Assembly: GCF_004421105.1 (NCBI RefSeq) | Contig: NZ_CP038033.1 | Coordinates: forward strand, 887,659 to 951,658 | From: Nitrosococcus wardiae | GTDB lineage: Bacteria > Pseudomonadota > Gammaproteobacteria > Nitrosococcales > Nitrosococcaceae | Direction of reading: 5' to 3' | DNA: 64,000 bases | Shown: positions 2,485 through 32,886 of the stretch, piece after piece | How positions within the stretch are numbered: position 1 is the stretch's first letter | Layout of the letters: each line of letters opens with the position of its first letter | Program-made: the position numbers and the translations under genes | The notes under the pieces: model-generated | What the model was told of the DNA's origin: nothing | Databases searched by the model: none | The model's input: only the letters and a program-made list of their open reading frames with translations

Positions 2485-2769
2485 CTAAAGCCTGGTACAG
2501 TGTAACTCGGCTCGCCGCTTTCCCGCGAAGCATACAAGCGGTGTGATCGGAGGCCGAGCAGTGCCCGATGGTTGATTTCCAGTCCTGTTGAACCTATAGT
2601 TATAAATAACACGGCTCAGCGGAATCCGCACCAGGTCTTCGGTGGCCAGCTCCAGCAGACTGCTCTGGAAATAGCCGGCGATGCGGTCGTAACGCGTGGC
2701 CCCAGTCAGGCGGGGTTTGAGGAATTCTTCGTACAGGCTGGCTCGGCGTGAGCTGTAGCGGCGAAGCAT
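2485..2769 (-). pseudogene. Remnant N-terminus of a PLD/SNF2 helicase
   Basis: The first 50 or so residues (LRRYSSR, YDRIAGYFQSSLLELA) match the start of the intact helicase at 23038 (RRFSSR, YRRIAGYFTSSLFEVA). After LVRIP the similarity stops and unrelated sequence runs to a stop at 2485. It overlaps the Hsp70-like gene start at 2769, as expected for the next gene of an operon. The remaining 850 or so residues, including all helicase motifs, are missing, presumably through a deletion that also brought the integrase close. Confidence 0.75.
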
Positions 2770-4718
2770 TATTGGATTCCCTTGCTATCAGCTCCCTTGA
2801 CAACAGAGTATCCTGTATCGTTAATGACGCTCTCCTCTGAGCGGAGAAAATCCTGCCATTCGCTAATCTTGGCCTTCTGCGCCTTAGCATCCATTTCCTT
2901 TACTGAACCACTACTACACGTGCAATTTTCACTTCCCTCTAACCGAATTTGATACCAAGTTCGCTTGCAGTATGTACAAGGAACGTAATACATCTTCTCA
3001 TCGTGCTGCCGTCTTGTTGGCTCCCATAATGGAGGCAATCTGTTCCTGTATTTCTTAACCAGGTCTCCTGGAACCAAATCCCACGATTGGTCACCCCTTA
3101 CGATATTTGAGCGGAACTTAATAGCACCTACTTCCCGCTTGAGGTTAACTTCGTTGTTTCTTTGGCCGTTGCTATTATCTGGATTCGTTTGCTCTTTAAC
3201 ACCCTGCCCCATAGACAGCCCGAACTCTAGATTATGGATCTCACGCTCGCTAAGGTGCCCCACCATCGATGAGCTAGCCGTTACTGTTACCACTAGGTCG
3301 TGATCGATATTCACATTGATATTGAGCCGCTCGGTCAATGGTGCAGCTTCTTCATCTACAGCAACAAGTAGAGTCGCGTAGCTCCTTCTCGGGTCTCCTG
3401 GCAGGTTCCTATCAGGCCATACCGGTCTGGCAAATTGAAATTTCCCGTATCCGTCCCTGGGATCTATACAGTAAGCTTTGAAAGGAAAGGCGAAATTTTG
3501 GTTTTCAATGGGAAGTTCCGTACCCTCGCTAATCAGGGTGGAGTAATTATCATTCCCCAGTAATAGCTCGAATGGTTTAGCAAGCGTAAGGCGCACCCCG
3601 TCATGGCCTATCCATGCCGCACCCTGCGAAATAATCCTGTCGCCATCATCTATTTTCGGAACACGAAGTGGGTCGAATCGCTCCAGCAGACGCTCCCTGA
3701 TATAGGGCATGCGAACCATCCCACCTGTGGCCAGACAAAGCGCTATAGAAGCCTGATTCACTCCGGTTGATTCAAGGATTTCATCAATGTTTTTCATCCC
3801 TGCGTCGACTATATCCCTCGTCAGTTCGATCAGTTTTTCCCTGGTGACTTTCACTTCCAAGCTGTGATCGGGCCCATCCGATTTAAGGTAATGCCTTACG
3901 CCGATCTTGATGCTCGACCTATCCGAAAGCGCTATCTTTGCGGTCTCGCATTGTGCGATCAATTTTGCTTCGGCATGTGGGAATTCATTGGCAACGCTAT
4001 CGATACTGTATTGTTTCATGTGCTCATTCTTGGCGTATCGGATCAACCGATCGTCGAACCTGTCTCCACCTACCGTGTTATCCCCCTTACTCTGTATCTG
4101 GACCAACATGCCCTTGGTAATTTTGCACAACGTCAGATCCAGGGTTCCTCCTCCCCAGTCGAAGACCAGAACGATCTGGCCTTCAAGCTCGGCGAGCCGC
4201 CTTTGAAAACCAGAAAGAGACCTCAAGTAGCCATATAGCGCCGCAAAAGGTTCCTGCACAAACTGATGAATATGGAGTCCTGCTTTCAAGGCTGCCTCAC
4301 GGAGATCGCGACGGGCGCGCCCCACTGCATTGATAGGGATCGTCATCACCGCCCGTTCAAATGTTTCCCCGTTAATTTCTCTATGCTGACGAGCGTCATC
4401 ACGGACATGCCTCAATATCTCAGCCACGACATCGCTAACACTCCTCGCTACGCCACCAACGTGGATTTTCTCACCGCTTCCCAAGTAGCGTTTCGGGGAG
4501 CGGACAAAATCACCTATGACGCCCACGTCAGTCGTTTCAATGGCATTCTTTGCGGCCCGCCCTACGACCACCTCATTTCCGTGATATCGGATAACCGAAG
4601 GATGTGGCATCCGGTCATCTTCGTTGACCAGTGATAGCATCTTCTCATCTACGTCATCTAGAACAATTGACGCCAGTGAATTGGTTGTCCCGAAATCTAA
4701 TCCGTAGATCTTAGCCAT
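2769..4718 (-). CDS. Hsp70/DnaK-like ATPase with C-terminal zinc ribbon
   Basis: A 649-residue protein with a complete Hsp70 nucleotide-binding domain: phosphate-1 loop GLDFGTTNS (6-14), connect-1-like IPINAVGRARRDLREAA (127-143), phosphate-2 FDWGGGTLDL (186-195), VGGDRFDDRL (216-225) and an adenosine motif ATGGMVRMP (330-338). Residues 400-480 resemble a beta substrate-binding domain. In place of the helical lid the C-terminus has a CxxC...CxC ribbon (Cys581, 584, 599, 601), so it is not housekeeping DnaK. It overlaps the coiled-coil gene upstream (stop 4697, start 4718) and the helicase remnant downstream. It appears lower in GC than the 7.0-8.3 kb remnant. A chaperone or ATP-driven sensor in a defence locus is inference. 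Confidence 0.85.
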   Translation of the reverse strand: MAKIYGLDFGTTNSLASIVLDDVDEKMLSLVNEDDRMPHPSVIRYHGNEVVVGRAAKNAIETTDVGVIGDFVRSPKRYLGSGEKIHVGGVARSVSDVVAEILRHVRDDARQHREINGETFERAVMTIPINAVGRARRDLREAALKAGLHIHQFVQEPFAALYGYLRSLSGFQRRLAELEGQIVLVFDWGGGTLDLTLCKITKGMLVQIQSKGDNTVGGDRFDDRLIRYAKNEHMKQYSIDSVANEFPHAEAKLIAQCETAKIALSDRSSIKIGVRHYLKSDGPDHSLEVKVTREKLIELTRDIVDAGMKNIDEILESTGVNQASIALCLATGGMVRMPYIRERLLERFDPLRVPKIDDGDRIISQGAAWIGHDGVRLTLAKPFELLLGNDNYSTLISEGTELPIENQNFAFPFKAYCIDPRDGYGKFQFARPVWPDRNLPGDPRRSYATLLVAVDEEAAPLTERLNINVNIDHDLVVTVTASSSMVGHLSEREIHNLEFGLSMGQGVKEQTNPDNSNGQRNNEVNLKREVGAIKFRSNIVRGDQSWDLVPGDLVKKYRNRLPPLWEPTRRQHDEKMYYVPCTYCKRTWYQIRLEGSENCTCSSGSVKEMDAKAQKAKISEWQDFLRSEESVINDTGYSVVKGADSKGIQ

Positions 4719-5779
4719 TCGATTTCTCTCCTGATTTCTTCTCTGGCCATTTCCAAGCGTTCAACGATAATGCTCTCTCTTGGCAGTTTCAGTTCCGCAA
4801 ATTCGTGGGCCGTTTCTAAGAGCGGACTGAGTTTCTTTTCCAGAAATACCCTGGAGTGCCCCCTCAATTCGCCTTCCCTGTGAGCACTGATCGCTTTTTG
4901 GTGCTCGATTCTTTTCTCAAGAAAGGCCCTTTCATCCTCAGAAGCCTTTAGCTTTGCCCTCAGATCGGCTATCTCTCCCTCTTTCCTCTCCAGCTCTGCT
5001 CTAGCCTCCCTTAGCTGGTCCAGATAGTCCTGTGCGCGCCTGAACTCTCTGTCTCTCTGCTGTCTTTCCCGCATCTCCAATTCCCGAGCGTGTTGCGCCT
5101 TGATCAAACCATATTCGGCAATCCGCAGCATGTCGGTTATTGCCTTGATCTTGTTCATCGGCCTGAACAGAATTTCGAATATGGCAGGAATCCCTCCATT
5201 TCTATTCGCTTTCTTGGAAAGAAGCTCCTTTGCGAGGAATCCGACGGCCTCTATCTCATCCAGATTTCTGCTATGGATTTTCCAAATGCCCATCGCCTTC
5301 AACAGGTTTACTGATCGGTTATCTACCTTTTTCCCGGTTAGGCCCGGTTTGAGGCCGTGAAACGCTTCCGCAAATATAACGTCCGCGGACTTGTTCAAAT
5401 CCAGATCGATCTGGTAGTGCTTACTCAGTTGCTGCCTGCATGCTTGCGAAGCAAAAGTAATACATTGTCTCGCCAATGGTGACTGGGCACGCGCCGCATA
5501 AAAAAGAAGATCCAGAGTTCTTGCAAACTCCGGATCCTTGTCATCAAGACCATCAAGGCAATGCTGAACATCATTTTCTTGAAGCTTTGCTACCTTGTTT
5601 TTCTTTAACGCGGACAAAAACCGTGTGGCCGATAGCTTCTTGATTTGGTAGTAATCATTCAGCGATCTCAGGTCTTCTGATTTGAAGGCAGGCTCCTTCT
5701 CCTTTTTCTTTTCTTGTCTTTCCTTTTCTGGCATAGCCTTTATTTCAAGCTCTTGTTTTGCCTTATCTTCAGGAACCAT
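4697..5779 (-). CDS. Coiled-coil protein encoded between Hsp70-like and zinc-finger genes
   Basis: A 360-residue protein of no family I recognise. The N-terminus is very charged (E/K-rich to about residue 33). The middle (40-220) looks globular and helical, with no visible enzymatic motif. Residues about 225-310 form a strong coiled coil dense in E, R, K and L, and the tail is helical. It starts 3 bases after the zinc-finger gene stops and its 3' end overlaps the Hsp70-like start, so the three are probably translationally coupled. By analogy with Hsp70 partners a GrpE-like or scaffold role is possible, but no sequence signature supports this. Confidence 0.8.
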   Translation of the reverse strand: MVPEDKAKQELEIKAMPEKERQEKKKEKEPAFKSEDLRSLNDYYQIKKLSATRFLSALKKNKVAKLQENDVQHCLDGLDDKDPEFARTLDLLFYAARAQSPLARQCITFASQACRQQLSKHYQIDLDLNKSADVIFAEAFHGLKPGLTGKKVDNRSVNLLKAMGIWKIHSRNLDEIEAVGFLAKELLSKKANRNGGIPAIFEILFRPMNKIKAITDMLRIAEYGLIKAQHARELEMRERQQRDREFRRAQDYLDQLREARAELERKEGEIADLRAKLKASEDERAFLEKRIEHQKAISAHREGELRGHSRVFLEKKLSPLLETAHEFAELKLPRESIIVERLEMAREEIRREIEWLRSTD

Positions 5780-5782
5780 TGC

Positions 5783-6940
5783 TTATCCCTCACCTTCGAG
5801 CTGTAATTCAGCCCAGCTGCCAAATACCGGATCGTTTACCAGATCTTCCAATATTGGCCTTCCCGCCGCAGTATCCTCGGTTTGAATCGCTGCGAGTGCC
5901 GTCAAAACGCGCAGTTTGGAAAGATCAGAATCCGACAACGTTCTCCTGATCGCAGATGCCGATAGCTCTGCGATCAGCGATCGATCCGCATGATCGGCAC
6001 GTATTTTTTTGAAGACCTCCAGAAGATCATAAGAATCACGGTCAATAGGACACGCCGATAGCTCTCTTTCACTGTCCAGCATGTCATCCCTGCTGGTCAA
6101 CTGAACCGTAACCCCACGCGTCACCGTCGCAAAAACCTCATTCGCCGCATCGAGTAATTCAGCGCCAGATGGGAGAGGCGGATTTCTGAAGTCATTGAGG
6201 TTAAACTTGATTGACGCACATATTGCCCTGGGGACCGGTCGGTCGAAATCATGCAACGTCTCTAAAGCCTGCTGCATCTTTTCCTTGTAAACGGACAACG
6301 GCCGGGAAACCCCGGTGTTTTCATTTTGGTCCTTGATCAAGACACCCGTCACATACACTGCTAATGCACTGGCATATTCATCCGCGCCAGGATATTTAGC
6401 ACAGCCATCGGAAAAGCGCCGCACATCACTCATCCTGACATCATCAATGGCCAACGTACGGATGAAGAGCTCATCGACTGCATCGAGTTCCGCTTGGTCA
6501 GCGATCTTAATTTTTACAATGTAATTGGCTTCTACGGTGCGCTCGTTGTTTGGATCACTATTCGACAGGGTTATTGAATAGTGTCCGTTCTCATGGCCCG
6601 AGAGATGCTTTTTCAACTCATCTGGCAACCACTCTCTGGGCTCTCCTCCATCCTTGCTTGCCTTGATTCGATTGACGTGAGTTAAGTCAATGTCGTCCTT
6701 GCTGATGGGGGATCGAATGGTTTGCTCCGAATACGCCACTCTGTTGTGAATAAATAACAGCGGCCGTTCGATAGGGTGATCGACGCTGATATGTGTGGAC
6801 AATTCGCCGGTGGATTCGAACTGCCTGGTGCAGTAAGGACAATAGTGGATCTTGGGCGTCGGTGGATACTGGTCGCCCAGACCACCACGTTCCCAGTAAC
6901 GGTCGATCGCTGTTTCCTGTATCCATCCCACTGTCGGCAT
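5783..6940 (-). CDS. C2H2 zinc-finger protein, first gene of the Hsp70 cassette
   Basis: A 385-residue protein with one classical C2H2 finger near the N-terminus: Cys34-x2-Cys37-x12-His50-x4-His55 (core YCPYC...STHISVDH). C2H2 fingers of this form are uncommon in bacteria and suggest DNA, RNA or protein binding. The rest, about 330 residues, matches no family I know; residues 180-385 look helical and repeat-like. The ATG at 6940 has a GGGAGGG-type ribosome binding site upstream. It is followed within 3 bases by the coiled-coil gene and preceded by the DUF499/DUF1156 remnant, whose stop is about 70 bp away. Confidence 0.8.
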   Translation of the reverse strand: MPTVGWIQETAIDRYWERGGLGDQYPPTPKIHYCPYCTRQFESTGELSTHISVDHPIERPLLFIHNRVAYSEQTIRSPISKDDIDLTHVNRIKASKDGGEPREWLPDELKKHLSGHENGHYSITLSNSDPNNERTVEANYIVKIKIADQAELDAVDELFIRTLAIDDVRMSDVRRFSDGCAKYPGADEYASALAVYVTGVLIKDQNENTGVSRPLSVYKEKMQQALETLHDFDRPVPRAICASIKFNLNDFRNPPLPSGAELLDAANEVFATVTRGVTVQLTSRDDMLDSERELSACPIDRDSYDLLEVFKKIRADHADRSLIAELSASAIRRTLSDSDLSKLRVLTALAAIQTEDTAAGRPILEDLVNDPVFGSWAELQLEGEG

Positions 6941-7011
6941 CAGGTACCCTCCCTGGTCATTGTATGATTCTTATTCATCCCTCTCTCTTCTCAGTTCAAC
7001 CGCGATAGTGT

Positions 7012-8253
7012 TCAACGGCAATGGCCAATTGGGCCAGTAAATCCTGGTAGGACTCCCAGTGCGGATTGGCCTCGGTCACCTCCCGTAAATAGCTCAGGAT
7101 CGCCGCCAGGCGGGTAGTGCGGATGTTCCAGAAATCGGTGCTGTCCACTAGGTGTTTCGCTGCCCGCTCCACCGGCCAGCAGTTTTAGCGCATGATAGAT
7201 GTGGCGGGTGGGCGAGTGACGCCACAAGCCCCGGTCAGACGCCGGAAGCTCATCGAAGCGCAGCCCATCGGGTCTTGGCAGTTCCTCGGGCATCTTGGTG
7301 CGGGAATCATTGGCGCGGATCGGCTCCATCAGTTCTTCATAGTCCGCCAAGCCATAGGCCCGGCCCAGATCCTGGAAGGCACCGAGCTTGAACACTCCTT
7401 GCGCTTCCCCTTCCAGTCCCTTGAGCAGGAACTTCTCCTCCGGGCTGAACCCCCGCCAGAACTGGTAAGCGTCGCCGCCCCCCGCCTTGTGGATAGCCCG
7501 GTCCATGGCGGGGGGCACCAGGAAATCGGTCGCCGTGCGCTTAGCGTTATCCATGAGGGTGCGCAGCGCCGAGCGGCCGCGCTCCGCGTTGGGCGCGCGC
7601 AACTCCGATTCCAGGTCTACGTCGTTGATGCTGGCGTAACCGGTGACTACCTCGGCGGCGGCCGCCTGCGCGGCCAGCAGGTAGTCGGTATCGGTGTAGC
7701 CGCAGCGGGCCAGTCCCGCCTCGATCTGGCTCTCGCGCATGGGGGTGATGACCTCTTTCACCCGCTTGTCCAAGAGAATCAAGGCTGCACGGTCCTTGAG
7801 GGCGTCGCGCCATTCGGCTTCCGAAGAGGCCCGGTCTGGCGCGAAGGTGGCACCCAGCGCCTCGCCGAGGGCCACCCATACCTTCTTGTCGGTTGCCCGG
7901 CCGGTAAAGGCAGCCACCACATCTGGCGCTATATCGGGTAGAGTCGGCTGAAATGGCAAAAGGCTGGCGAAATGTGGGAAACGGGCCAGTATCCCGGCCA
8001 CGATCATGCTTTGGGTCTTGCCACCTCCCATGGATTCGGAAAGCTTGTAGATGCCGCTACCGCCCCCCGTCCCCGCCATGCGGGTGAAGGCTTGAGCTAG
8101 CAGCAACTCCATCCCGGAGGTTAACACGTTGGAATCCAGGAACTCGCGTGCCTCGGCCTCAGTTAGCGTGTTGACATCGGCAAGGTTGACGACGAAATCG
8201 GCGGTATCGTCCAGGACGGCTGTGCGAGGCGTCAGGGCTGCAAGGGATTTCAC
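7012..8253 (-). pseudogene. Deletion fusion: DUF499 N-terminus joined to DUF1156 methylase C-terminus
   Basis: Residues 1-162 match the start of the DUF499 ATPase at 16253, with Walker A in SMGGGKT (74-80), and stop inside Walker B (ALILLD). From residue 163 (KRVKEV) the sequence instead matches the C-terminal 270 residues of the DUF1156 methylase at 20006 (QVRKEV, then VVTGY against VLTGY, and FLVP against LLVP). A multi-kilobase deletion near 7767 joined the two in frame. Near the 3' end a frameshift moves the natural C-terminus (AAKHLVDSTDFWNIR to AIAVEHYRG) into another frame that reaches a stop at about 7012. Start is GTG with GAGGAA upstream. It appears more GC-rich than the Hsp70 cassette. 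Confidence 0.8.
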
Positions 8254-8715
8254 TTTGATGTTCCTCGCTTATGGTTCTCTTTGTCCGTTGAGCTAGCGTT
8301 ATCAGGGCTCGCTATACCGTTCCTCCCGCAGTAATCACGGATCAACACCTCGACCATTTAGCGATGGAGTGGTGTTCGCAGTTAGCGGCAGTCCGCAGCC
8401 CTTCTTCCAGCAGATGTCAATGTCCTGTTTGCGCGCTACTTCCAGGGGGGGCGTTGTTCAGCCATTCCCTTTTCACGGTGGACATAAAGCGCACCCTAGT
8501 GACTTCAGCCTGGCGGCTGTGATCACTAAAATCCTTATTTGTTATAAACTTAAATATTTACCTGGGACGCCCTCGGATAGAAACGTCTTCACTGAAGTAT
8601 CGGACGTTGATGAGAGAACCTGAATTCACCGAGGCCGTGCCGACCCGGCGGGGCGAAAACCAGAAATCCTTTGCCCAGCAGACACCAACCTTCTAATTCA
8701 AAGGTAAACGCAGAG
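8254..8715. other. Divergent intergenic region between broken locus and control module
   Basis: About 460 bp between the GTG start of the fused remnant (- strand) and the next + strand gene. No convincing gene. An AT-rich block near 8535-8565 could hold a promoter, but I cannot define boxes with confidence. Confidence 0.4.
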
Positions 8716-9375
8716 ATGCCAACAGCAAAGCCACGATACGCGGGGGACGATTCCAAATTACAGCCAGAGAGTTTCTCAGAAGAACTGAGACACACGCTAC
8801 GCAGCTACTCTCCTCATTCTGAAGTCGAAACCGATGCGACAGGAGCGCATCCTGCCGATATCTTCGTCGAGGAGCTTTTATACGAGGCACGCTGGGCGAG
8901 TGAAGAATTAAGCGCGCAGCGTTCGGATCTTACTAAAGGGGAGCTACACGCCGAACGGTCAGATTTGCTCAAGGCGCTCACCTCTACTCATCACAAGTTA
9001 TGCAATCTCTCACGCGACTTTGACTGCCTTTTGGGCGTGAACGCCGATCCGCTTGGCTGCGCCGATAAAATCCATGAATTGATCGGATATGTTGAAGGTG
9101 CAGCGACAGCGATAGATACTCAGCCGCCTATGGAGCGTTCTCCCGTCAAGCAGCACAAAGTGGCGGTGGAGATGACTATCCGTGTTATGCGTGTACTGCA
9201 AGATCATGGGATTGAGGTGTCAGCAACTGCTGATAAGAGATTTAAAAATACATATATATCTGAGCCTGTTCGGATATTGAAGGCCCTTGGTGATGAGATT
9301 CGCCTGGTGCGCGATATCTACACCTGGCGCGATATCCTTATTAAGGCAAAAGAATCTGTTTCCGATTTTAAGTAG
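8716..9375 (+). CDS. Hypothetical protein preceding AlpA regulator
   Basis: A 219-residue soluble protein with no signal peptide, membrane segment or motif I recognise. It is acidic and helix-rich in the middle (paired ELHAERSDL/ELSAQRSDL segments). I prefer the ATG at 8716 (MPTAKPRYAG) over the weak TTG at 8671, because AAAGGTAAA precedes it. A hairpin follows directly after the stop, so it is probably a single transcription unit. Position just upstream of AlpA and the replication gene suggests an island-maintenance role, but nothing in the sequence says which. Confidence 0.65.
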   Translation: MPTAKPRYAGDDSKLQPESFSEELRHTLRSYSPHSEVETDATGAHPADIFVEELLYEARWASEELSAQRSDLTKGELHAERSDLLKALTSTHHKLCNLSRDFDCLLGVNADPLGCADKIHELIGYVEGAATAIDTQPPMERSPVKQHKVAVEMTIRVMRVLQDHGIEVSATADKRFKNTYISEPVRILKALGDEIRLVRDIYTWRDILIKAKESVSDFK

Positions 9376-14196: not shown

Positions 14197-15099
14197 CTAT
14201 TTACTGCCTCGATAAGCCGCAACGCGCCGACAAAGCACTAAAAACTCCCGCGAGGTCAATGCCCCCCGTGCAGTTGAGCACTTTTCGCACTCTGGGCCCC
14301 ATATTGTGCTCTTAGAGAACTGGCAGCCGCAATAATAACACGTCCCAAGAGGGGTTCGACGCTGCCAGCTGATAGACTCCCCCACAGATCGAGGGGAATA
14401 CAGTTGCTGGCGATACGATGTGGCAATTAGATAAGACCGATCTTGATAAAATTGCCATACGCCCTTCATTCTGACCAGTCCGTAATCGTCAAGCCGTTTT
14501 GCAGCTTCTTGCGGGATAATAAAGCGAAATAACCTCTCAGAGCTATCAGCGACATCAACGCTAAAAAAGGCCGGTGAATTTCCTTGATCCAGTACCGATA
14601 GATCAATCTGCTGGGGCTGAGAGTAAAGCGCGTGATTGTCAGCAACGAACCCCTCGACGATGACTTCTGATCCCCCACAGCCAGGTGGTACTAGCTCAGA
14701 GCGAGGCTGATAAAATCGGCCATCGAATCCGGCAGTCTCCAATTCCGCATCGATGGCTGAAAGTGCACTTGATCTTTCAGCAACGTGTTCTTCCCAGCAG
14801 GCATGGACTTGCCATGGCCAGCCGAGTTTATCAAAAAGAACACAATCCCCGGATCCATTGCTGTGAAAAAAGACTTCCTCGCCACACCACCAACAGCTGG
14901 TTGGGTAAGTAACCGATAAATCGGGATCTGCGATAGTCCACTCCCGTGTTTGAGGTGAAGGATCACTACGTTCATAAGGTACACACTCATGAAGCTCGCC
15001 GTTCTCGGGATCCCAAGGAAGATAGTTCCCCGCTGGCATCTGAGCCCAACGAATCTTTTCCCCACAGTACTTACAAGTTGACCACCCCATATCGGACAT
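14197..15099 (-). CDS. Hypothetical protein with three Cys-rich zinc modules
   Basis: A 300-residue protein with three probable zinc-binding units: CKYCGEKIRWAQMP...C near residues 9-39, CWWCGEE...C near 69-100, and CYYCGCQ...CEKC near 255-275. The first two share the order CxxCG...Wx(9-20)HxC, suggesting a duplicated module. No catalytic motif is visible. The gene is alone on its strand inside the island beside the intact helicase-methylase locus. Possibly nucleic-acid binding; I do not recognise a family. Confidence 0.7.
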   Translation of the reverse strand: MSDMGWSTCKYCGEKIRWAQMPAGNYLPWDPENGELHECVPYERSDPSPQTREWTIADPDLSVTYPTSCWWCGEEVFFHSNGSGDCVLFDKLGWPWQVHACWEEHVAERSSALSAIDAELETAGFDGRFYQPRSELVPPGCGGSEVIVEGFVADNHALYSQPQQIDLSVLDQGNSPAFFSVDVADSSERLFRFIIPQEAAKRLDDYGLVRMKGVWQFYQDRSYLIATSYRQQLYSPRSVGESISWQRRTPLGTCYYCGCQFSKSTIWGPECEKCSTARGALTSREFLVLCRRVAAYRGSK

Positions 15100-16252
15100 T
15101 CCTACTCTGCCGAATTAGAAGTGATAGGAGCAAAAGTGACTATAAGAAATGTAAGTTTGTAATTTTTCATTTCATCAACTCTTAATTTTTAAAATGAAAT
15201 CCTTAAATTCGCATGCAACGCCAGTACTTTGTTTTCCTGAGGATTAAGATAAGCTGAACTAGAAAATACTGTTAGTAATTTTTTGCAAAAAAATAGAAGG
15301 CTATTTGCAATCCTGTTGCAAATAGCTATTCATTAGATATGATGCCCTCATAAACCTTGAGAACGGAAAGAGAAAGTCGATGATTCGGGTGGCTAGCGTC
15401 CTTATTGCTGGGGGGACTCGCTGGAGTGGAGTGCTGATGAGCGGGTCTACGGCAAACGGATCAAGAGCAAGAGCTTTCCCAAAGCCATAAGTACGTCTGT
15501 TCCGGGTTGTGGTGCCCACCCACCGCATGGATTGGGTCGTAACCCAACAATCCCACTCAGGATTTCACGCAAGCCACACGCCTATTCTGTGGTTTGCGCT
15601 GGAAGATTGAGCAGTTACACTACAAGGGAAGTGCTGATTTGATTGGAGAGCACCACCATAAATTCCTGCCTGGCTTTATCTACTTTTCTTGTCCACGACA
15701 GTCTGTTTGATCATCATCACGGCATATAGTATTGATGAGAGCCGACTCCAGATGAGGATAGTCAGCACTCAGGCTTAGGCGAGCTGCCCGGATTGTGGAC
15801 GTGCAGTACTCACATCCATAGTCATTTACTTCTCTCCTCTTATTCCTCGACATAAGTTTAGGTCCTCTGTACCGCTGATCTAGTACTGCAACCGGAGCTC
15901 GCTCAGCGCCAGGATGGCTATAAGGAATCCATGTTCCGCGGTATCAGCCCCATCTTCCTCCAGCGCTGCATAAGTGGTTGATTTTGCTAGAGCGATTACA
16001 TGGGTACCAATACACTAACTTATTGATTTTACTAGATACTACGGGGAAGATGGGTCAGCCATCACCGGTTACTAATCGCCAATGAGATCGGCTACACGCC
16101 GTCTTAGCAACTCCTGTTTGGACGCTACGCCGTGAGCCTATGCTTCGACGATGAGCCGGGGGTTTGTTATTTCTCAGGGAGCAAGCGGTCCTGCCGATAA
16201 CGAAAGCACGTCACGTATTTCTACTAAGAAAGGGGTTTATAAAGGAAATCTC
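15100..16252. other. Intergenic, with decayed transposase near 15380-15640
   Basis: About 1.15 kb before the intact defence locus. Around 15505-15620 the + strand encodes, in two frames, HRMDWVVTQ and then DFTQATRLFCGLRWKIEQLH, which matches the C-terminal part of IS4-type transposases; frameshifts make it a fossil. The 5' part (15100-15300) is AT-rich without genes. In 15650-16250 I see no gene; the promoter for the defence operon should be near its end, but I cannot point to clear boxes. Confidence 0.5.
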
Positions 16253-19200
16253 ATGCTAAAAACTGTCCGCGACGCCTGCCAGCTTCATACCATGGCGCTC
16301 GATTACACGATGACCGACGCCATTGAGAACCTTGCCGATCTTATCAGCGATGAGGGAGATGGCGCCGCCTTTTTCGAGAAGAACTATATCACCCATGGTA
16401 TGGAAGAACTTTTTCGGGAAGGGCTGCTGCGGTTAGGAGGCAAGTCAGACCAAGCGGTCTTTGAACTCGCTCAGGCCATGGGAGGTGGTAAGACCCACTT
16501 GATGATCGCCCTCGGGCTTCTGGCCAAGCATCCGGCGCGGCGCCAGGAAATTGTGCCGAAGCTGGCTGCGCGTGCCGGGTTCGAGCGGGCACGCCTTGCT
16601 GCTTTCAACGGCCGCAACAGCCCCGATTATTACCTCTGGGGCGAGATTGCCGAGCAGCTGGGGAACCGTGATGCGCTTAGGAAATTTTGGATCAATGGCC
16701 CCAAAGCGGTAGCCGAATCTGATTGGAAGTCGCTCATCGGTGATGATCCTACATTGATCATGCTTGATGAATTGCCACCTTACCTGCATATGGCCAACAC
16801 TGTTCCGGTGGGGGGCGGTACGTTGGCAGATGTGACCACCTATTCGCTCGCCACCTTGTTCACTGCCGCCATGCAGCTTCCACGCTGCTGCATAGTGATC
16901 GCTAACCTTTCTGGAAGCTACCATGGGCAAACTCAGCAGATCACAAAGCTAGTCGCCAACCTCCAGAACGAAGCGCGGCGGCAGTCCAAAGTGATTACCC
17001 CAGTCCAATTGGCGGGCAACGAGGTCTACGCGATCCTCAAAAAGCGCTTGTTTGCAAGTCTCCCGCCCGAGGAGGATATTGATGAGATTGCCGAAGCCTA
17101 TGCCGAGCGCATCAAGGCGGCCGAAGATGGGGGTTATCTGACGGCCCGCAGCCTGGAGCAGGTTGCCGATGAAGTGCGCGCCACCTATCCCTTTCACCCC
17201 TCCTTTAAGCATCTAGTAGCATTGTTTAAGGAGAACGAAGGATTTCGGCAGACCCGAGGATTAATGCAATTTACGGCCCGGTTACTGAAATCCGTCTGGG
17301 AACGACCGCAGAATGATGTCTTTCTCATCGGCACTCAGCATCTTAATCTCAACCTTGATTCGGTACGGGACGAGATTACCCGGATTAACGGAGAGCTATC
17401 GCCAGCTATCACCAAAGATGTCGCCGACAGCGGCAGTGCCCACGCCGAAGAGATCGATGCGACTCTCAACAGTGATGCCGGTACCCAGATGGCTAATCTC
17501 CTGCTCTCCGCGTCCCTCTCCCGGGCCGTCAAAGGTCACGTCGGATTGAGTCGGGAGGAAGCTATCGAGTATCTGGTGGCCCCTAACCGTAGGCCGGATG
17601 AGTTCGAAAAGGCGCTGGAAAGCCTCAAAAATAAAGCGTGGTATTTGCATCGCGAAGGCGAGCTATTTTACTTCAAGGAGACCGAGAATCTCACCAAGCG
17701 GATCGAGAAGGATGCTAGCCGTCTGCCAGCCCCCAAGGTAGCGCAGGTACTCACCCAACAACTTGCCACACTTCTCCAGCCGCGCAGCCGCTTGGCTTAT
17801 CAGGAAGTTTTGGTATTGCCGCCCCTGGATAAGGTTAACTTGGGAAGTCATCGCGTATTGCTAGTAGTCGAACCGGACGGCTCCGTACCTCCGGAGACCA
17901 TCAAGAAATTTTACGATTCCATTACCGAGAAGAACCACCTGCTGGTGCTCTCTGGCAACGACAGCTATCTGGCCGGCGAAGTGGAACAGCGGCTCCGGGA
18001 ATTCTACGCTATAGAGCGCATTTGCAAGGACAAGGACCTAAAACCCGGGGACACGCTGTTTGAAGAAGCGCAGGAAAAGCATGAGGAACTCCAAGGGCGC
18101 TTTCTAAAAGCGCTCTCGCATGCCTACAACCGACTCTTTTATCCCGGTCCCGAGGGGCTGGAAACGGTCATTATCGAAAATGGATTGTCCTTTGGCGAGG
18201 GTGAACATTCCGCCGAGCACCAGATTGAGAAGCTCCTTGCCAGCAGCCGTTGCGATGAGAAGCTTGCAGCGCACCTGCGCGAGGCACCGCTGTCCTACTG
18301 GGCTATGGCCGAGAACGACCTTTGGCCCATGGGGGAACGGCGCACCCCCTGGCGGGATGTGTTGCTGCGCGCCAAAACTAATCCTGCTTGGCCCTGGATG
18401 CCTGGCTTTAAGGGGCTCGATACCCTGAAGTCCCTGGCGCTGGAACAAGGCCGCTGGCGCGAAGGGGCAGACGGCTATCTCGAGAAAGGCCCCTTCCCTA
18501 AGGAAAAAACCTCTGTAAACATCACGGTGCAGAGTACGGATCGGGACACGGGCGAGGTGACCTTGACCCTTACACCTCGCCATGCCGGGCCGAGTCCCCG
18601 CGTTCACTATAGCACGCAGGTCAATGTCTCCGTGGAGAATCCTTCTGTTCAGGATTTGGATAACTTTCGCACCCGGGAAGCCACGCTGTACTTCCTGGCG
18701 GTGGATCCCTCCGGTGAACACCAAACCGGCGAACCCGTGCGTTGGAGCAATCGGCTGGTTATTCGGCATCAGATTCGTGCCACCGCTGAGGGTCGTAAGG
18801 TGGAACTGAAAGTCGTCCCGACCGGCACCCTCCGCTTTACTCTCAATGGGATTAACCCCAAAGAAGGGCAGCTTTACGAGGGACTTTTCGCGGTGCCCCC
18901 GGAAGGGGCGATATTACAAGTCTATGCGCACGCCGGTGAAGCTGAAACCCAGGAAACCATTCGGCTTCCAGCGTTGGGCAGTGACCAGCCGCAGATCGAT
19001 GAGGCTAAGCCGGCGAGTTTGAACTCCAGTCAGCGGCTCAATCTTGACACCACTGAAAAGACTTTCAAGCTCATCCAGGCATTCCGCGAGGATGACACCA
19101 CGCAGTTCAAGGGTGTGCAGGCCATTATCGGTGAGAACGAAGAGGCCGTGACCCTAAGGTTTAACGCACGCCCAGTTACTGCGGCGGTCATCGAACAGGC

Positions 19201-19351
19201 AGTTCGTGCCTTACGCCAGGCCATCGGCGATGAGCAAGCGCCGGTGCAGATCACCATCCGCGAGGGTGGACACTTTCGCAACGGTTACGAACTGAAACGC
19301 TTCGCGGAACTTTGCCAGCTAAAGCTAAGCCCGGAGGTGGTGATCCAATGA
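16253..19351 (+). CDS. DUF499 AAA-type ATPase of a helicase-methylase-ATPase defence locus
   Basis: A 1032-residue P-loop ATPase of the DUF499 family (COG1483-like). Walker A lies in AMGGGKTH (75-82) and Walker B is LIMLDE (168-173). The C-terminus holds a beta-rich region (about 740-940). The family is repeatedly found beside DUF1156 methylases and helicases in predicted phage-defence loci. I choose ATG 16253 over 16151 because AAAGGAAA precedes it and the 34-residue extension lacks similarity to the paralogue at 8253. Its stop overlaps the next start as ATGA. It is the first gene of a four-gene operon. In-system role (DNA loading, restriction control) is inferred, not shown. Confidence 0.9.
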   Translation: MLKTVRDACQLHTMALDYTMTDAIENLADLISDEGDGAAFFEKNYITHGMEELFREGLLRLGGKSDQAVFELAQAMGGGKTHLMIALGLLAKHPARRQEIVPKLAARAGFERARLAAFNGRNSPDYYLWGEIAEQLGNRDALRKFWINGPKAVAESDWKSLIGDDPTLIMLDELPPYLHMANTVPVGGGTLADVTTYSLATLFTAAMQLPRCCIVIANLSGSYHGQTQQITKLVANLQNEARRQSKVITPVQLAGNEVYAILKKRLFASLPPEEDIDEIAEAYAERIKAAEDGGYLTARSLEQVADEVRATYPFHPSFKHLVALFKENEGFRQTRGLMQFTARLLKSVWERPQNDVFLIGTQHLNLNLDSVRDEITRINGELSPAITKDVADSGSAHAEEIDATLNSDAGTQMANLLLSASLSRAVKGHVGLSREEAIEYLVAPNRRPDEFEKALESLKNKAWYLHREGELFYFKETENLTKRIEKDASRLPAPKVAQVLTQQLATLLQPRSRLAYQEVLVLPPLDKVNLGSHRVLLVVEPDGSVPPETIKKFYDSITEKNHLLVLSGNDSYLAGEVEQRLREFYAIERICKDKDLKPGDTLFEEAQEKHEELQGRFLKALSHAYNRLFYPGPEGLETVIIENGLSFGEGEHSAEHQIEKLLASSRCDEKLAAHLREAPLSYWAMAENDLWPMGERRTPWRDVLLRAKTNPAWPWMPGFKGLDTLKSLALEQGRWREGADGYLEKGPFPKEKTSVNITVQSTDRDTGEVTLTLTPRHAGPSPRVHYSTQVNVSVENPSVQDLDNFRTREATLYFLAVDPSGEHQTGEPVRWSNRLVIRHQIRATAEGRKVELKVVPTGTLRFTLNGINPKEGQLYEGLFAVPPEGAILQVYAHAGEAETQETIRLPALGSDQPQIDEAKPASLNSSQRLNLDTTEKTFKLIQAFREDDTTQFKGVQAIIGENEEAVTLRFNARPVTAAVIEQAVRALRQAIGDEQAPVQITIREGGHFRNGYELKRFAELCQLKLSPEVVIQ

Positions 19352-19986
19352 ACGCAACAGCCCAAAAGATGCAGACCATGACCCACAAGCCCCGAAGCAA
19401 GGCAGACAGCCGCTATGCCCACCGGACACGAGGGTTCGGGGTCCCGGCCACCCTGGATCCTCATCATTATCAAGTGCATATTCCCCGTGGCGCAAAGCAG
19501 CCAGTACTCATCCGTGAGAATCTGGGCATGCAGGCCGAGCGGGAGGACAAAGCGGTGATTGACCGCGTCTGTCTGGAACGTTACCGCTGGCGCGCCATTG
19601 CCAATGAGGTCAAGCGCGCCTTCAATCAGCGCCTTAAACAGCAGAAACTCGCAGCCGGCCAGTGGAAAGTAGGTGAGAATCCGGTCGACCGGTTGCTCGG
19701 CAAAGAACTATGCGTGCTGGCATGGGCTATCGAAGACGTGAATCCTGACCAGATCGGGCTCGCCATACGCAACTGGCTAGCGCTCCGGCCTGAAGAACGT
19801 TGGTGGCTGTTCGGTATGACCGCGATGGCCACGGGAGGTCTCCAGGACCGGGGCAAGGGCTGGCGCCAGGCCCTGCGCTATGCGCTCGCTGATCTTCCCC
19901 AGGCGACCCTGCTTCAACCCTGTACACCGCAGCCCGAGGACAAGGGCGCCGACTCGGGCTCCATTACCCCCGATCTGTTTGACTGA
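19348..19986 (+). CDS. DUF3780 defence-associated protein
   Basis: A 213-residue protein matching the DUF3780 family (RGFGVPATLDPHHYQVHIPR near the N-terminus, RPEERWWLFGMTAMA in the middle), a small partner that accompanies DUF499 and DUF1156 genes in predicted anti-phage loci. Its biochemical role is unknown. The ATG overlaps the DUF499 stop and has GGAGGTGG upstream. The next gene starts about 20 bp after the stop. No counterpart is visible in the broken locus at 2.5-8.3 kb, where the deletion could have removed it. Confidence 0.8.
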   Translation: MNATAQKMQTMTHKPRSKADSRYAHRTRGFGVPATLDPHHYQVHIPRGAKQPVLIRENLGMQAEREDKAVIDRVCLERYRWRAIANEVKRAFNQRLKQQKLAAGQWKVGENPVDRLLGKELCVLAWAIEDVNPDQIGLAIRNWLALRPEERWWLFGMTAMATGGLQDRGKGWRQALRYALADLPQATLLQPCTPQPEDKGADSGSITPDLFD

Positions 19987-20005
19987 ATTTCGGAGAAGAA
20001 AAGAA

Positions 20006-23000
20006 ATGGTGGCCACTCCGCACGCGATATCTCTTGAATCCTTCATTCTGAAAAACACACCAGCACTCATTGAGCGGGTTTTCCCGGCACAGAAGATTTC
20101 CGCTGAAGCCCAGAAAGAAAGAAAAGCGGGCTCGGGGCAAACCCTGACCGCCCTGGGCTCCTATTGGAAAGGCCGCAAACCGCTCATCCTGGTGCGGGCC
20201 CTTATTCTGGGCTCGCTACTCCCCGCTACGGACGATCCCGAAGCCGATTTGGAGATCTTTGAAAAGTTAATGGCCATTGATGAGGCGGCCTTCGGACGAC
20301 GGGAGCCGAAATTGACGGCGGCGCAGGTAGCGGAAAGAATTGCTTTGGTAAATCCGTGGGATTATTTTGATTACACTCTCAAGGGCACAAAAGTTGATCC
20401 AACGGCCATTAAGGCTCTGGAATTCCCCTGCCGGCTTAAGGATTATCCCGGCCTCTCCGTGCGTTGGAAGCGGGAGATTGCATGGGCGGATAAACAGAAA
20501 CTGCTAGCGGTAGCCCTCAAAGGATTATCCTATCCGGAGAAGGTCGCGCTCTGTAAACGGCCGGAGGAGTGTGACCCGAAAACCCTCTACGGCCCCATCT
20601 GGGAGGCGGTAAACCAACACCTGGGCCGTTTCGGCATTGAAGTTTACTCCCATGAGGAGTTGGTGGCACAGCTCGGTATGCTCCGCTTTGGGCAGCAACC
20701 CCGCGTCGGGGATACCTTCTGTGGCGGGGGCTCCATTCCTTTCGAAGCCGCGCGCTTGGGCTGCGATGTCTATGCCTCAGATCTTAACCCGATTGCCTGC
20801 ATGCTCACTTGGGGGGCGCTCAATATTATTGGAGCTTCACCTGAGGAGCACGCTGAGATCACGCAGGTACAGCAAACGGTTGCCGAGTCCGTGGACCAGG
20901 AAATCATGGAATTAGGCATTGAACATAATGAGCGCGGCGACCGCGCTAAAGCCTACCTTTACTGTCTGGAGACCCGCTGCCCACAAACTGGCTGGAAAGT
21001 ACCCCTGGCGCCGAGTTGGGTGATCTCTAAAACCCGAAATGTTTACGCCAAGTTAGTGCCAAACCACGCCAAGAAGCGTTTCGACATTGAGGTGGTGTCC
21101 AATGCGAGCATGGTGGAGATGGAGGCTGCGGCAAGAGGTACGGTACAAGATGGATGTCTGAGCTATGAGCTGGGTGGCAAAATCTACTGCACTCCCATCA
21201 AGACTTTGCGGGGCGATTACCGGGATGAAAATGGCGTCAATCGCAATCGTTTGCGACAGTGGGAGAAGCACGATTTCATGCCACGCCCAGACGACACCTT
21301 CCAAGAGCGCCTCTACTGCATTCAGTGGATCACCAAGGAAACCCTTAGTAAATCCCGGCAGGAGACTTATTTCGCTTCTGTTACCCCGGAAGACTTAGCG
21401 CGCGAGCGAAAAGTAGCGCATATCGTGGCAAAAAATTTGGCCCGCTGGCAGGAGGAAGGAGTAGTGCCGGATATGGCTATTGAACCCGGTGATAAGACGG
21501 ATGAGCCGATTCGCACGCGTGGCTGGAGCTATTGGCATCAGTTGTTTTTCCCACGCCAGATCCTTACCAGCGCTCTACTTAACAAACAAGCGTCCCGCCT
21601 ACCAGAAGGGTTGGCGAGAGCCGCTTGTGTAGCTCTTTTTAGCAAGACGCTGGATTATAACTCGAAGCTAGTTCAATGGGCGCCAAGCCATGAAACAGTG
21701 AATAATAGTTTTGGTAATCAGGCACTAAATACTATCTATAACCCACCTGTGAGAGCTTTGCATTACCAATTGGGATCAGCTCGTATGGATAAGATCCCAA
21801 CTTCAAAAGCTATCTATCGCTCAGTGAATATAGTTTCTAATCATCCTGCTGGTAATATCGATAAACAATCATCTCTTTGGATTACAGACCCGCCTTATGC
21901 CGATGCCATCCACTACCACGAGATCACCGAGTTCTTCATTGCGTGGCTGCGCAAAAACCCACCGGCGCCGTTTAACAACTGGATCTGGGACTCCCGACGG
22001 GCATTAGCCACTCAAGGCTCCGGCGATAACTTTCGGCGCGATATGGTGGCAGCTTACCAAGCCATGGCCGACCACATGCCTGACAACGGCTTCCAATGCG
22101 TCATGTTTACCCATCAGGACACCGGTGTGTGGTCCGATATGGCCTCTATCTTCTGGGCGGCAGGCCTACAGGTGATCGGCGCTTGGTACATTGCCACCGA
22201 AACCAGCTCGGAACTGAAAAAGGGCGGTTACGTCCAGGGCACCGTGATCCTAATCCTGAGGAAACGGTCTGCTGGCCAGCAGGCGGGTTTCAAACCGCGC
22301 CTTCTGCCGCAGGTGCGCAAGGAAGTCGGCACTCAAATTCAGGAAATGATGCATCTCAATCGGCGGACGGAGGAGCACATGGGCGCGCCGGTGTTCAATG
22401 ACTCCGATCTTCAGATGGCGGGCTACGCGGCGGCGCTGAAAGTTCTTACTGGATATACGGAAATCGACGGCGAGGATATGACGCGCCTGGCGTTACGTCC
22501 CCGGCAGAAAGGGGAAAAAACGGTGGTCGACGCTATCGTCCAGCAGGCGGCGGAAACCGCCAATAGTCTGCTTGTCCCCGAGGGCCTGCCCCCGGAAACG
22601 TGGGAGGCGATTGGCGGCATCCAGCGCTTTTATCTGCGCATGCTAGACATGGAAACCACGGGGGCATCGAAGCTCGACAATTATCAGAACTTTGCTAAAG
22701 CCTTTCGGGTGGAAAACTATCAGGCAGTGATGGCCAGCCAAAAGCCTAATGCGGCTCAGCTGAAAGGGGCGAAAGACTTTAAGCCCCGGGAGCTGGCCGG
22801 GACCGAGATTGGCGAGACCTTGCTCGGGCAGGTGCTGGTAGGGGTCCAAGAGCTGCTTCAGGAAAAGGACCCGCCGGTGGTCATGGGTAACCTCCGTGAT
22901 GCCCTTTCGGATTATTTTCAGCAGCGTAAGCACCTCCAGGCCATAGCCCAATTTATCCATGACAAACTTGCAAAGCGACGTCCTGAGGAAGCCCGAGCGG

Positions 23001-23041
23001 CCGAAATCATTGCCAGTCGGGTACAGACCGAGCGCCTATGA
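20006..23041 (+). CDS. DUF1156 adenine-specific DNA methyltransferase
   Basis: A 1011-residue methylase. The N-terminus carries the DUF1156 domain. The SAM-binding motif I is DTFCGGGSIPFEAARLGCD (about 236-254) with acidic motif II (YASDLNPIA), and the catalytic motif IV DPPY is at 628-631, indicating an N6-adenine amino-methyltransferase. The C-terminal third (700-1011) is helical and shared with the fused remnant at 7012. ATG 20006 has GGAGAAG 7 bp upstream; the extension to 19880 is a shadow of DUF3780. The stop overlaps the helicase start (ATGA). It probably marks host DNA. A strikingly AT-rich patch just before DPPY suggests internal recombination. Confidence 0.9.
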   Translation: MVATPHAISLESFILKNTPALIERVFPAQKISAEAQKERKAGSGQTLTALGSYWKGRKPLILVRALILGSLLPATDDPEADLEIFEKLMAIDEAAFGRREPKLTAAQVAERIALVNPWDYFDYTLKGTKVDPTAIKALEFPCRLKDYPGLSVRWKREIAWADKQKLLAVALKGLSYPEKVALCKRPEECDPKTLYGPIWEAVNQHLGRFGIEVYSHEELVAQLGMLRFGQQPRVGDTFCGGGSIPFEAARLGCDVYASDLNPIACMLTWGALNIIGASPEEHAEITQVQQTVAESVDQEIMELGIEHNERGDRAKAYLYCLETRCPQTGWKVPLAPSWVISKTRNVYAKLVPNHAKKRFDIEVVSNASMVEMEAAARGTVQDGCLSYELGGKIYCTPIKTLRGDYRDENGVNRNRLRQWEKHDFMPRPDDTFQERLYCIQWITKETLSKSRQETYFASVTPEDLARERKVAHIVAKNLARWQEEGVVPDMAIEPGDKTDEPIRTRGWSYWHQLFFPRQILTSALLNKQASRLPEGLARAACVALFSKTLDYNSKLVQWAPSHETVNNSFGNQALNTIYNPPVRALHYQLGSARMDKIPTSKAIYRSVNIVSNHPAGNIDKQSSLWITDPPYADAIHYHEITEFFIAWLRKNPPAPFNNWIWDSRRALATQGSGDNFRRDMVAAYQAMADHMPDNGFQCVMFTHQDTGVWSDMASIFWAAGLQVIGAWYIATETSSELKKGGYVQGTVILILRKRSAGQQAGFKPRLLPQVRKEVGTQIQEMMHLNRRTEEHMGAPVFNDSDLQMAGYAAALKVLTGYTEIDGEDMTRLALRPRQKGEKTVVDAIVQQAAETANSLLVPEGLPPETWEAIGGIQRFYLRMLDMETTGASKLDNYQNFAKAFRVENYQAVMASQKPNAAQLKGAKDFKPRELAGTEIGETLLGQVLVGVQELLQEKDPPVVMGNLRDALSDYFQQRKHLQAIAQFIHDKLAKRRPEEARAAEIIASRVQTERL

Positions 23042-28091: not shown

Positions 28092-28147
28092 CAGTAACCG
28101 GTTGCGTGTGATAAGGCGCAGCTTCGTCAGGCTATTTCATGTTAGGC
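28092..28147 (+). repeat. Possible degenerate attC site before the NERD helicase
   Basis: GTTAGGC (28141-28147) matches the 3' end of attC-like site 2 and lies 20 bp before the likely start of the next gene, as for other cassettes. A plausible partner, AGTAAC, lies near 28093. The internal pairing is weak, so this is tentative. Confidence 0.35.
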
Positions 28148-28167
28148 CCATCAAGGAGACGCATCGC

Positions 28168-32659: not shown

Positions 32660-32674
32660 CACCCATAGCCACCA
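32660..32674 (+). repeat. attR: 15-bp attachment repeat
   Basis: CACCCATAGCCACCA, identical to the tRNA-Met 3' end at 1057-1071 and in the same orientation, not part of a tRNA here. It marks the right boundary of the island. Flanking bases are unrelated to those of attL. Confidence 0.9.
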
Positions 32675-32886
32675 TATGAATATCCTTTTGAAACAGATAA
32701 TTAGAGTAAATTTTCACACCACAAGAAATCTGCTTGTATTTGTTTTAAGGTGGTTACAAGTCCATAGCAAGTCCACTGCAATGGAAAAATCACTAATGTG
32801 ATCCAGATTTTGAGGCTAGGTATAGTAGGTAATAACACCATACCTTACTTAGGCTTCATTTTCAGAGAGAAGGCCTACTATTTTTA

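Follow-up and report, generated by a model that had tools for sequence, protein, structure and literature searches.

Hsp70-type proteins figure in two sets of predicted conflict systems: the available part of the CoCoNuT description has an Hsp70-like protein, CnuD, predicted in type III systems (PMC11090510), and that of the GAP1-N2 GTPase systems has HSP70 in the company of GrpE and DnaJ/TPR-FNIII proteins (PMC7159879). BREX and its relatives, for their part, are described with additional genes. BrxU (GmrSD), when expressed with BREX, provides an independent and complementary layer of protection according to the accessible portion of its report (PMC8565348), and nuclease auxiliaries of BREX and its related systems are described in the available part of a survey from 2026 (PMC12839542). 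The subject here is a cassette of three genes in a 64,000-nucleotide (nt) stretch of Nitrosococcus wardiae DNA (contig NZ_CP038033.1, positions 887,659 to 951,658; 'the window' in what follows), encoding a C2H2 zinc-finger protein (ZF), a coiled-coil protein (CC) and an Hsp70-like ATPase. Our reading, to which we incline modestly, is that the three genes form a mobile, operon-like defence module, an interchangeable cargo carried in or beside methylation-based anti-phage systems and acting as an Hsp70-type capture machine.

The original prediction, made from the letters of the window, treated the three genes as a set, and as a set they recur. With an alignment of two Hsp70s (those of the window and of genome G213) as query, 80 loci were kept from genome contigs, where there were at least 444 relatives, and 5 from viral contigs. 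The 33 loci with a family-level Hsp70 match (28 of the 80 genomic and 5 of the 5 viral-contig ones) were taken as the module set and the other 52, L041 being counted among them, as control. ZF and CC lie directly upstream of Hsp70 in 33/33 family-level loci, while the 52 control loci gave no ZF match and two CC matches, both weak (20-22 bits). Retrieval by ZF instead led to the same triad in 8/8 genomes (G213, G442, G819, G849, G851, G899, G951 and G956) and in 2/2 plasmids, where the ZF is split. When the G213, G951 and G851 loci are taken as repeats of L028, L030 and L026 and counted once, the module stands at 41 distinct loci among those listed, the window included, with the order ZF-CC-Hsp70 in each; L021/L094 and L099/L100 are near-copies. 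The hosts are Proteobacteria, Actinobacteria, one 'Deltaproteobacteria' and one Chloroflexia metagenome-assembled genome, plasmids and IMG/VR contigs. ZF is rare. When 369 genomes of the class, the window's own among them, were searched, one other matched (G213, 25% identity, same gene order). In the phylum ZF is present in 2 of 398 genomes, the window's own and G442; in the class it is in G442 and G213, 2 of 369; and in the family of G442 it is in 7 of 275. In public records the proteins are labelled 'hypothetical protein' and 'Hsp70 family protein'.

Single-sequence searches were less productive: the window ZF against genome contigs gave 68 pattern stretches and no relative, the window ZF and CC against plasmids gave nothing useful, and the L021 ZF had no match in 50,697 phage records. 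Ten proteins flanking the module on L090-L093 were scanned. Transposase, integrase or ParB-like families account for three of them and a Sak4-like annealing protein for one (on L093), and a further five had matches to PHROGs (families built from viral proteins) of unassigned function or to nothing else telling; L094 carries BREX genes. Because of the Sak4-like and PHROG matches, the module may also have a phage-like carrier. Five actinobacterial copies (L023, L029, L032, L036 and L099) have a fourth gene directly after Hsp70, of 446-543 amino acids (aa) as read and 47-87% identical to that of L029; PDB matches make part of it coiled coil, a PDB profile search was otherwise uninformative, and the two members scanned had no Pfam match. 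An effector or adaptor is a possible identity for this fourth protein.

A recognised system accompanies the module at 25 of the 41 loci, with BREX the commonest recognised home. Eleven loci are inside BREX (L015, L021, L024, L026, L030, L037, L094, L097, L140, L141 and L143), as called by BrxC, PglX, PglZ and BrxL using PADLOC for L021 and similarity to L021 or L097 for the others, BrxC being beyond the available stretch in L026 and L030. Five more are in or beside DUF499/DUF1156 systems (Hma, 'BREX-related'): the window, L014 and L025 inside, L033 beside on the other strand, and L028 beside, where the adjoining HmaA fragment stops after 143 codons. The helicase-methylase-ATPase home originally proposed holds for the window, L014 and L025, but the module is not tied to it. 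It stands behind DISARM drmABC in L031, with a type III restriction-modification (R-M) system having a DrmD-like helicase in L012, within about 6 kb of type I R-M genes in L019 and L142, and beside a PDC-S37/Hhe-like helicase-nuclease in L027 and also L028. Nearby are type III CRISPR effector genes in L020, PsyrTA and a dynamin-like protein in L018, and DUF262, methylase, helicase and GIY-YIG genes on the plasmids L099 and L100.

That this company is not shared by the other Hsp70 loci of the same search is apparent from 18 neighbour queries (16 of defence families, the window integrase and the L018 dynamin-like protein), which match 16/33 module loci versus 0/52 control loci (Fisher p = 1.5e-8), a comparison weakened by 14 of the 18 queries having come from module loci and by L018, L019, L021 and L031 being matched only by their own queries or the integrase. 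With self-locus matches and the integrase left out, the figures are 12/33 versus 0/52 (p = 2.7e-6). BREX taken alone is matched in 7/33 (p = 9e-4), or in 6 without L021 (p = 2.5e-3), versus 0/52 in the control. A test that avoids the circularity of neighbour queries, and carries most weight, comes from the 275 genomes of G442's family, 41 of which have BrxL and 7 ZF: BrxL is in 6 of the 7 ZF-positive genomes versus 35 of the 268 others (p = 4.9e-5), though species of one family are not independent of each other.

Within BREX the placement is exact: in 11/11 cases the module sits between pglX and pglZ, an optional gene set between core genes, and so is embedded cargo. The junctions are tight: in L021, L037 and L094 the end of Hsp70 and the beginning of pglZ have 4 nt in common, as do ZF and the preceding gene in L014 and L037. 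Twelve genomes have a BrxL at least 94% identical to that of G442 (G442 included), and they divide evenly into six with the module and six without. In the former the module is alone in the slot (L097, L140), accompanied by GmrSD (L030, L141 and L143, as also in L015) or accompanied by ABC, Schlafen and AAA_21 genes (L026). In the latter the slot has GmrSD alone (L149), an ABC-type ATPase (L147), an AIPR protein (L146), AAA_21 with a small gene (L145), a 1179-aa protein (L144) or a Schlafen-type fragment (L148, where the slot is cut at the contig end of an assembly that is 79% complete). The 1179-aa protein (L144:4545-8084, genome G810) has no Pfam match and is itself candidate defence cargo. 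A BREX core subunit, one of the identities considered for the module, is ruled out by ZF being in 6 of the 41 BrxL-bearing genomes of the family and in half of the twelve.

The recurrent position with a methylase gene on one side and an effector gene on the other, starts overlapping stops, the suitability of Hsp70 chemistry for protein remodelling, and the finding of the module with several unrelated methylase-based systems all invite another explanation, namely an accessory chaperone or regulator which assembles, restrains or protects the host's methylase-based machines, for instance against phage anti-restriction proteins in a form of 'counter-counter-defence'. We think this unlikely: the BREX of 6 of the 12 near-identical-BrxL genomes is without the module and has other cargo instead (one of these slots being the cut one), and the module persists intact in the window, L028 and L140 with a damaged host system at its side, or without BREX in L142, where it is together with GmrSD in a genome that has no BrxL match. 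In L140 (G899, 3032-8889) pglX is interrupted by two transposase genes and the cassette embedded there is intact. It is because the module alternates with GmrSD, AIPR, Schlafen and ABC genes, is optional in BREX and exists outside it, that an autonomous layer is favoured over a BREX helper; the cassette would then add a second phage-defence layer of its own to whatever system it joins.

The Hsp70-like protein has a nucleotide-binding domain (NBD), a region resembling the beta part of the substrate-binding domain (SBD-beta) and, in place of the helical lid, a CxxC...CxC putative zinc ribbon. D8, E156, D187, T192 and D194 are present in 31/31 aligned rows and K76 in 30/31 (L016, L035 and L093 were omitted as cut or over-long). 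We take their DnaK equivalents to be the catalytic residues, so that the Asp/Lys/Glu/Thr set of the Hsp70 superfamily is in place. The family profile aligns with DnaK chains as far as residue 514 of 4b9q_A and 547 of 6w6e_I, which argues for SBD-beta, some chains (e.g. 9dvi_B) being aligned over the NBD only. Beyond this there is no helical SBD-alpha lid but 74-94 residues followed by CxxC and two more Cys in 31/31, within a total length of 585-649, and the exchange of lid for ribbon noticed at the outset is supported. In a tree of NBDs the module Hsp70s are a separate clade (local support 0.94) apart from 55 other Hsp70s, with 31 members and one fragment (L041, 196 aa) which has no ZF or CC found beside it. 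A housekeeping DnaK orthologue is ruled out by this separate clade, by ZF being in 0/3 other genomes of the genus and by the 30% identity of the window protein to the nearest other Hsp70 of its own genome, and an alternative that would have refuted the original prediction, a housekeeping paralogue remote from defence genes, is answered by the same clade together with the neighbour counts above. Elsewhere on the same chromosome (G000:C1:2679835-2682095) there are two neighbouring Hsp70-like matches, in frames of 623 and 936 aa, which belong to another family.

A zinc finger and a zinc ribbon in one module, and the published prediction for the Hsp70-like proteins of type III CoCoNuT (in the part of PMC11090510 available), suit a further alternative, on which zinc fingers and Hsp70 would here bind RNA or ribosomes and halt translation of phage messages. 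Such an RNA-directed module seems improbable to us, since the phosphate motifs of CnuD are degenerate, going by the same part of that source, whereas the ATPase residues here are invariant or nearly so, and no RNase domain is recognised.

The AlphaFold2 model of the window ZF (pLDDT 87.7, pTM 0.80) has a finger at 34-55, a beta-sandwich at 61-144 and a helical-repeat region at 149-384. Pfam gives a weak C2H2 finger match, and the C2H2 ligands are kept in 30/30 rows (L013, L027, L035 and L092 omitted as cut or over-long). The model of CC (pLDDT 85.5, pTM 0.56) has a helical domain at about 40-204, a coil of some 118 residues at 211-328 and a C-terminal helix; L027 and L033 were similarly omitted from its alignment. 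With VIA-align the best Z values for ZF and CC were 6.9 and 7.3, a level expected of common helical and sandwich folds that does not imply novelty of fold. No J domain or GrpE domain was found by Pfam in the cassette proteins of the window.

What might such a trio do? The intact ATPase, the substrate domain, the exchanged lid and the two dedicated partners suggest that the module captures a specific target, driven by ATP. As its motor, the Hsp70-like protein would run an ATP cycle that, because a zinc ribbon replaces the lid, is proposed to clamp that target rather than unfolded peptides in general. ZF would recognise a protein or nucleoprotein made by the phage and, in the manner of a J-protein, pass it on; CC would tether ZF to Hsp70 or, like GrpE, drive nucleotide exchange. 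Put at its most specific, a dedicated immune chaperone machine (lidless zinc-ribbon Hsp70, ZF adaptor and CC cofactor), traded among unrelated restriction systems, would capture a phage protein or nucleoprotein with neither cutting of nucleic acid nor killing of the cell. This version we advance tentatively, as plausible rather than probable.

All three proteins are maintained. Among seven related copies the ratio of nonsynonymous to synonymous substitution rates (dN/dS) is 0.06-0.14 for Hsp70 (median 0.10), 0.10-0.20 for ZF (0.16) and 0.12-0.29 for CC (0.23), after dropping pairs with saturated dS and with many of the remaining pairs at a dS near or above 1; PglZ, for comparison, has 0.08-0.12. 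There is therefore purifying selection on all three, with CC changing fastest. The original prediction had drawn selection from the frames staying open in the window while their neighbours decayed, which by itself is weak evidence because that 'decay' is mainly deletion; it is the dN/dS of the relatives that supports the claim. As to movement, on an Hsp70 tree of 33 rows, which predates the inclusion of L140, L141 and L143, at least 4 changes are required to explain the BREX label (well-supported branches force 3 of them) against a shuffled mean of 7.3, so that BREX context is clustered and partly a matter of shared descent. The Hma label needs 5 changes for its 5 rows; gain and loss are not distinguishable among such changes. 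Repeated movement of the module between host systems is nevertheless the simplest reading.

Set against the defence-module reading, besides the provenance of the queries, the kinship of the species and these two features of the tree, are the following. Scans covering part of the neighbours recognised no defence system at 16 of the 41 loci. In ZF, CC and Hsp70 there is no domain recognisable as that of a nuclease, protease or toxin; CC, scanned for the window protein only, had no Pfam match at E 0.1; Foldseek searches with the ZF and CC models gave nothing below E 0.001 and no convincing J-protein, GrpE or other fold; and J-protein and GrpE serve as no more than analogies for the roles proposed. 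Loci without a recognised system, and mobile contexts such as the island described below and conjugative plasmids, would also suit a cassette that is selfish or confers stress tolerance, whether toxin-antitoxin-like or a chaperone cargo, and that is in defence islands only because these tolerate insertions. This we regard as very improbable, however: one exact slot in 11/11 BREX operons, common to known defence genes, is too specific for tolerance of insertion.

To return to the window (Table 1), the defence module that we favour is there found in what is left of a DUF499-DUF1156-helicase operon. The genes were first described as three overlapping ones on the minus strand; open and on that strand they are, with CC and Hsp70 overlapping by 22 nt, but ZF and CC are separated by a 3-nt gap. 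The last base of the Hsp70 stop, TAA, is shared with the ATG of the helicase remnant, which retains some 60 N-terminal residues (58 of them align at 50% identity with the window's distant intact copy); its open reading frame (ORF) continues as far as 2485, but resemblance to a helicase ends with those residues. On the other side the remnant had been taken for a DUF1156 methylase, which its C-terminal part is; it begins, however, with the N-terminus of DUF499, the whole being an in-frame fusion of DUF499 residues 19-162 with DUF1156 methylase residues 162-325, and for that reason most of both genes must have been deleted. The intact locus at 16151-25770 has no cassette, and its methylase and helicase genes overlap directly, as had been said, by 4 nt. 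It is a distant relative of the remnants, however, and their being a recent duplicate of it is ruled out by amino acid identities of 24-50%.

Table 1. Features of the window, with positions counted from its first letter
Feature	Positions	Strand	Basis or remark
C2H2 zinc-finger protein (ZF)	5783-6940	minus	385 aa, intact ORF
Coiled-coil protein (CC)	4697-5779	minus	360 aa, intact ORF
Hsp70-like ATPase	2769-4718	minus	649 aa, intact ORF; Pfam HSP70 7.6e-47
PLD/SNF2 helicase remnant	2600-2769	minus	PADLOC PLD_Helicase 4.4e-15, residues 1-60
DUF499 ATPase N-terminus/DUF1156 methylase C-terminus fusion remnant	7012-8253	minus	PADLOC, NCBIfam
DUF499, intact	16151-19351	plus	PADLOC E-value 0
DUF1156 methylase, intact	19880-23041	plus	PADLOC E-value 0
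PLD helicase, intact	23038-25770	plus	PADLOC E-value 0
tRNA-Met	995-1071	plus	ARAGORN
Island left end (last 15 nt of tRNA-Met, attachment-site repeat)	1057-1071	plus	exact direct repeat
Island right end (second copy of 15-nt repeat)	32660-32674	plus	
Tyrosine integrase (Arm-DNA-bind_3, Phage_int_M, Phage_integrase)	1235-2461	plus	Pfam; adjoins tRNA

The lower GC of the cassette relative to the 7.0-8.3 kb remnant, which had prompted the suggestion of a separate acquisition, is clear at third codon positions (GC3), with 0.52-0.55 for the cassette versus 0.714 and 0.717 for the flanking remnants. In overall GC the cassette resembles the local chromosome (about 0.50), while the remnants and the integrase are GC-rich. 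Because both stumps agree in GC3 and the cassette between them differs, the arrangement fits insertion of the cassette into a pre-existing DUF499-DUF1156-helicase operon with deletions afterwards, and separate acquisition accords as well with the differing host systems on the Hsp70 tree. Just past the helicase stump, 2559-2582 matches a piece of the integrase gene (1715-1738) at 83% in inverted orientation, as if the deletion had ended in a second integrase fragment. Between remnants and intact locus, 14197-15099 is a 300-aa ORF that has no NCBIfam match and in which several CxxC motifs, CKYCGEK for one, resemble those of zinc ribbons.

All of this is within an island of 31.6 kb. The 15-nt direct repeat is exact, with 0 expected by shuffling, and the same-genus genome G747 lacks 1072-32659 at this tRNA; there, positions 1-74 of L127 correspond to 998-1071 of the window and 60-173 to 32660-32776 (73.5% identity); it is because the tRNA end there joins the window's right-repeat flank directly that the 31.6 kb are deemed missing. 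The other two same-genus genomes had no such match to the right flank. The window cassette is, then, stranded in a tRNA-Met island after its host system was mostly deleted. Near the right end of the same island a NERD-UvrD helicase-nuclease gene (28102-30030, GC 0.41) is followed by a 428-aa ORF, to 31415, perhaps a further defence pair.

Has the module been described before? The original prediction knew of no defence system with this set, and within the libraries and papers searched that is still so; the cassette is apparently undescribed. PADLOC has no model for ZF or CC (window and L028) and gives the window Hsp70 one partial 12.9-bit match, and NCBIfam, scanned with the window proteins, has none for ZF or CC and matches Hsp70 only by generic DnaK/HscA models far below their cut-offs. 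The module was not found in the open-licence PMC literature, a scope outside which lie supplements, most subscription papers and newer defence databases. In the main text of the 2026 survey, so far as available, hsp70, dnak and chaperone each occur 0 times (PMC12839542). Neither are these words in the main text on DefensePredictor (PMC13092281), where a figure legend names zinc-finger and coiled-coil domains in connection with systems that were validated. A 2013 paper with both hsp70 and DUF499 has Hsp70, in its accessible portion, only for human sacsin (PMC3710099). The ZF-CC-Hsp70 set is likewise absent from the CoCoNuT and GAP1-N2 descriptions as far as the available parts extend (PMC11090510, PMC7159879). 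A family and a context are provided for proteins so far filed under uninformative labels and for which PADLOC-DB 2.0.0 is without a model. Phage immunity we infer from the company the cassette keeps; if it does defend, immunity would here rest on an Hsp70 ATPase, neither nuclease nor toxin being recognisable, and the slot that BREX has between pglX and pglZ would be a 'docking place' for exchangeable second-layer defences.

How does it compare with what is known? With DnaK/Hsp70 and its partners DnaJ and GrpE the module shares the catalytic NBD, the SBD-beta region and a three-protein set in which there are a zinc-finger and a coiled-coil partner, but it is without the helical lid, has the four-Cys tail, belongs to a separate clade, and is accessory and mobile. 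CoCoNuT, too, combines an Hsp70-like ATPase with coiled coils at loci predicted to act against phages, whereas the module has three genes with neither McrB GTPase nor McrC and, unlike CnuD, keeps its motifs (PMC11090510, the part available). McrB was not among the PADLOC matches of the ten window proteins scanned, no systematic McrB search having been made, and in L090 an AAA_5 protein is encoded upstream of the module. The GAP1-N2 systems, in the accessible part of their description, are likewise predicted conflict systems centred on an Hsp70 with partners, one of them a repeat and beta-sandwich protein, but the module is without a GTPase, has in the window CC no recognisable GrpE by Pfam, and has a C2H2 protein as partner (PMC7159879). 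The Hma or Type-2 BREX-related systems (DUF499-DUF1156-PLD helicase) are host to the window cassette and, in related form, to those of L014 and L025, though the core parts given in the available portion of the survey do not include the cassette (PMC12839542). From BrxU/GmrSD cargo the module differs in being without a nuclease domain, in consisting of unrelated proteins and in being known from sequence alone, but it is in just the same way an extra gene set in a BREX operon, and GmrSD uses the very same slot between pglX and pglZ.

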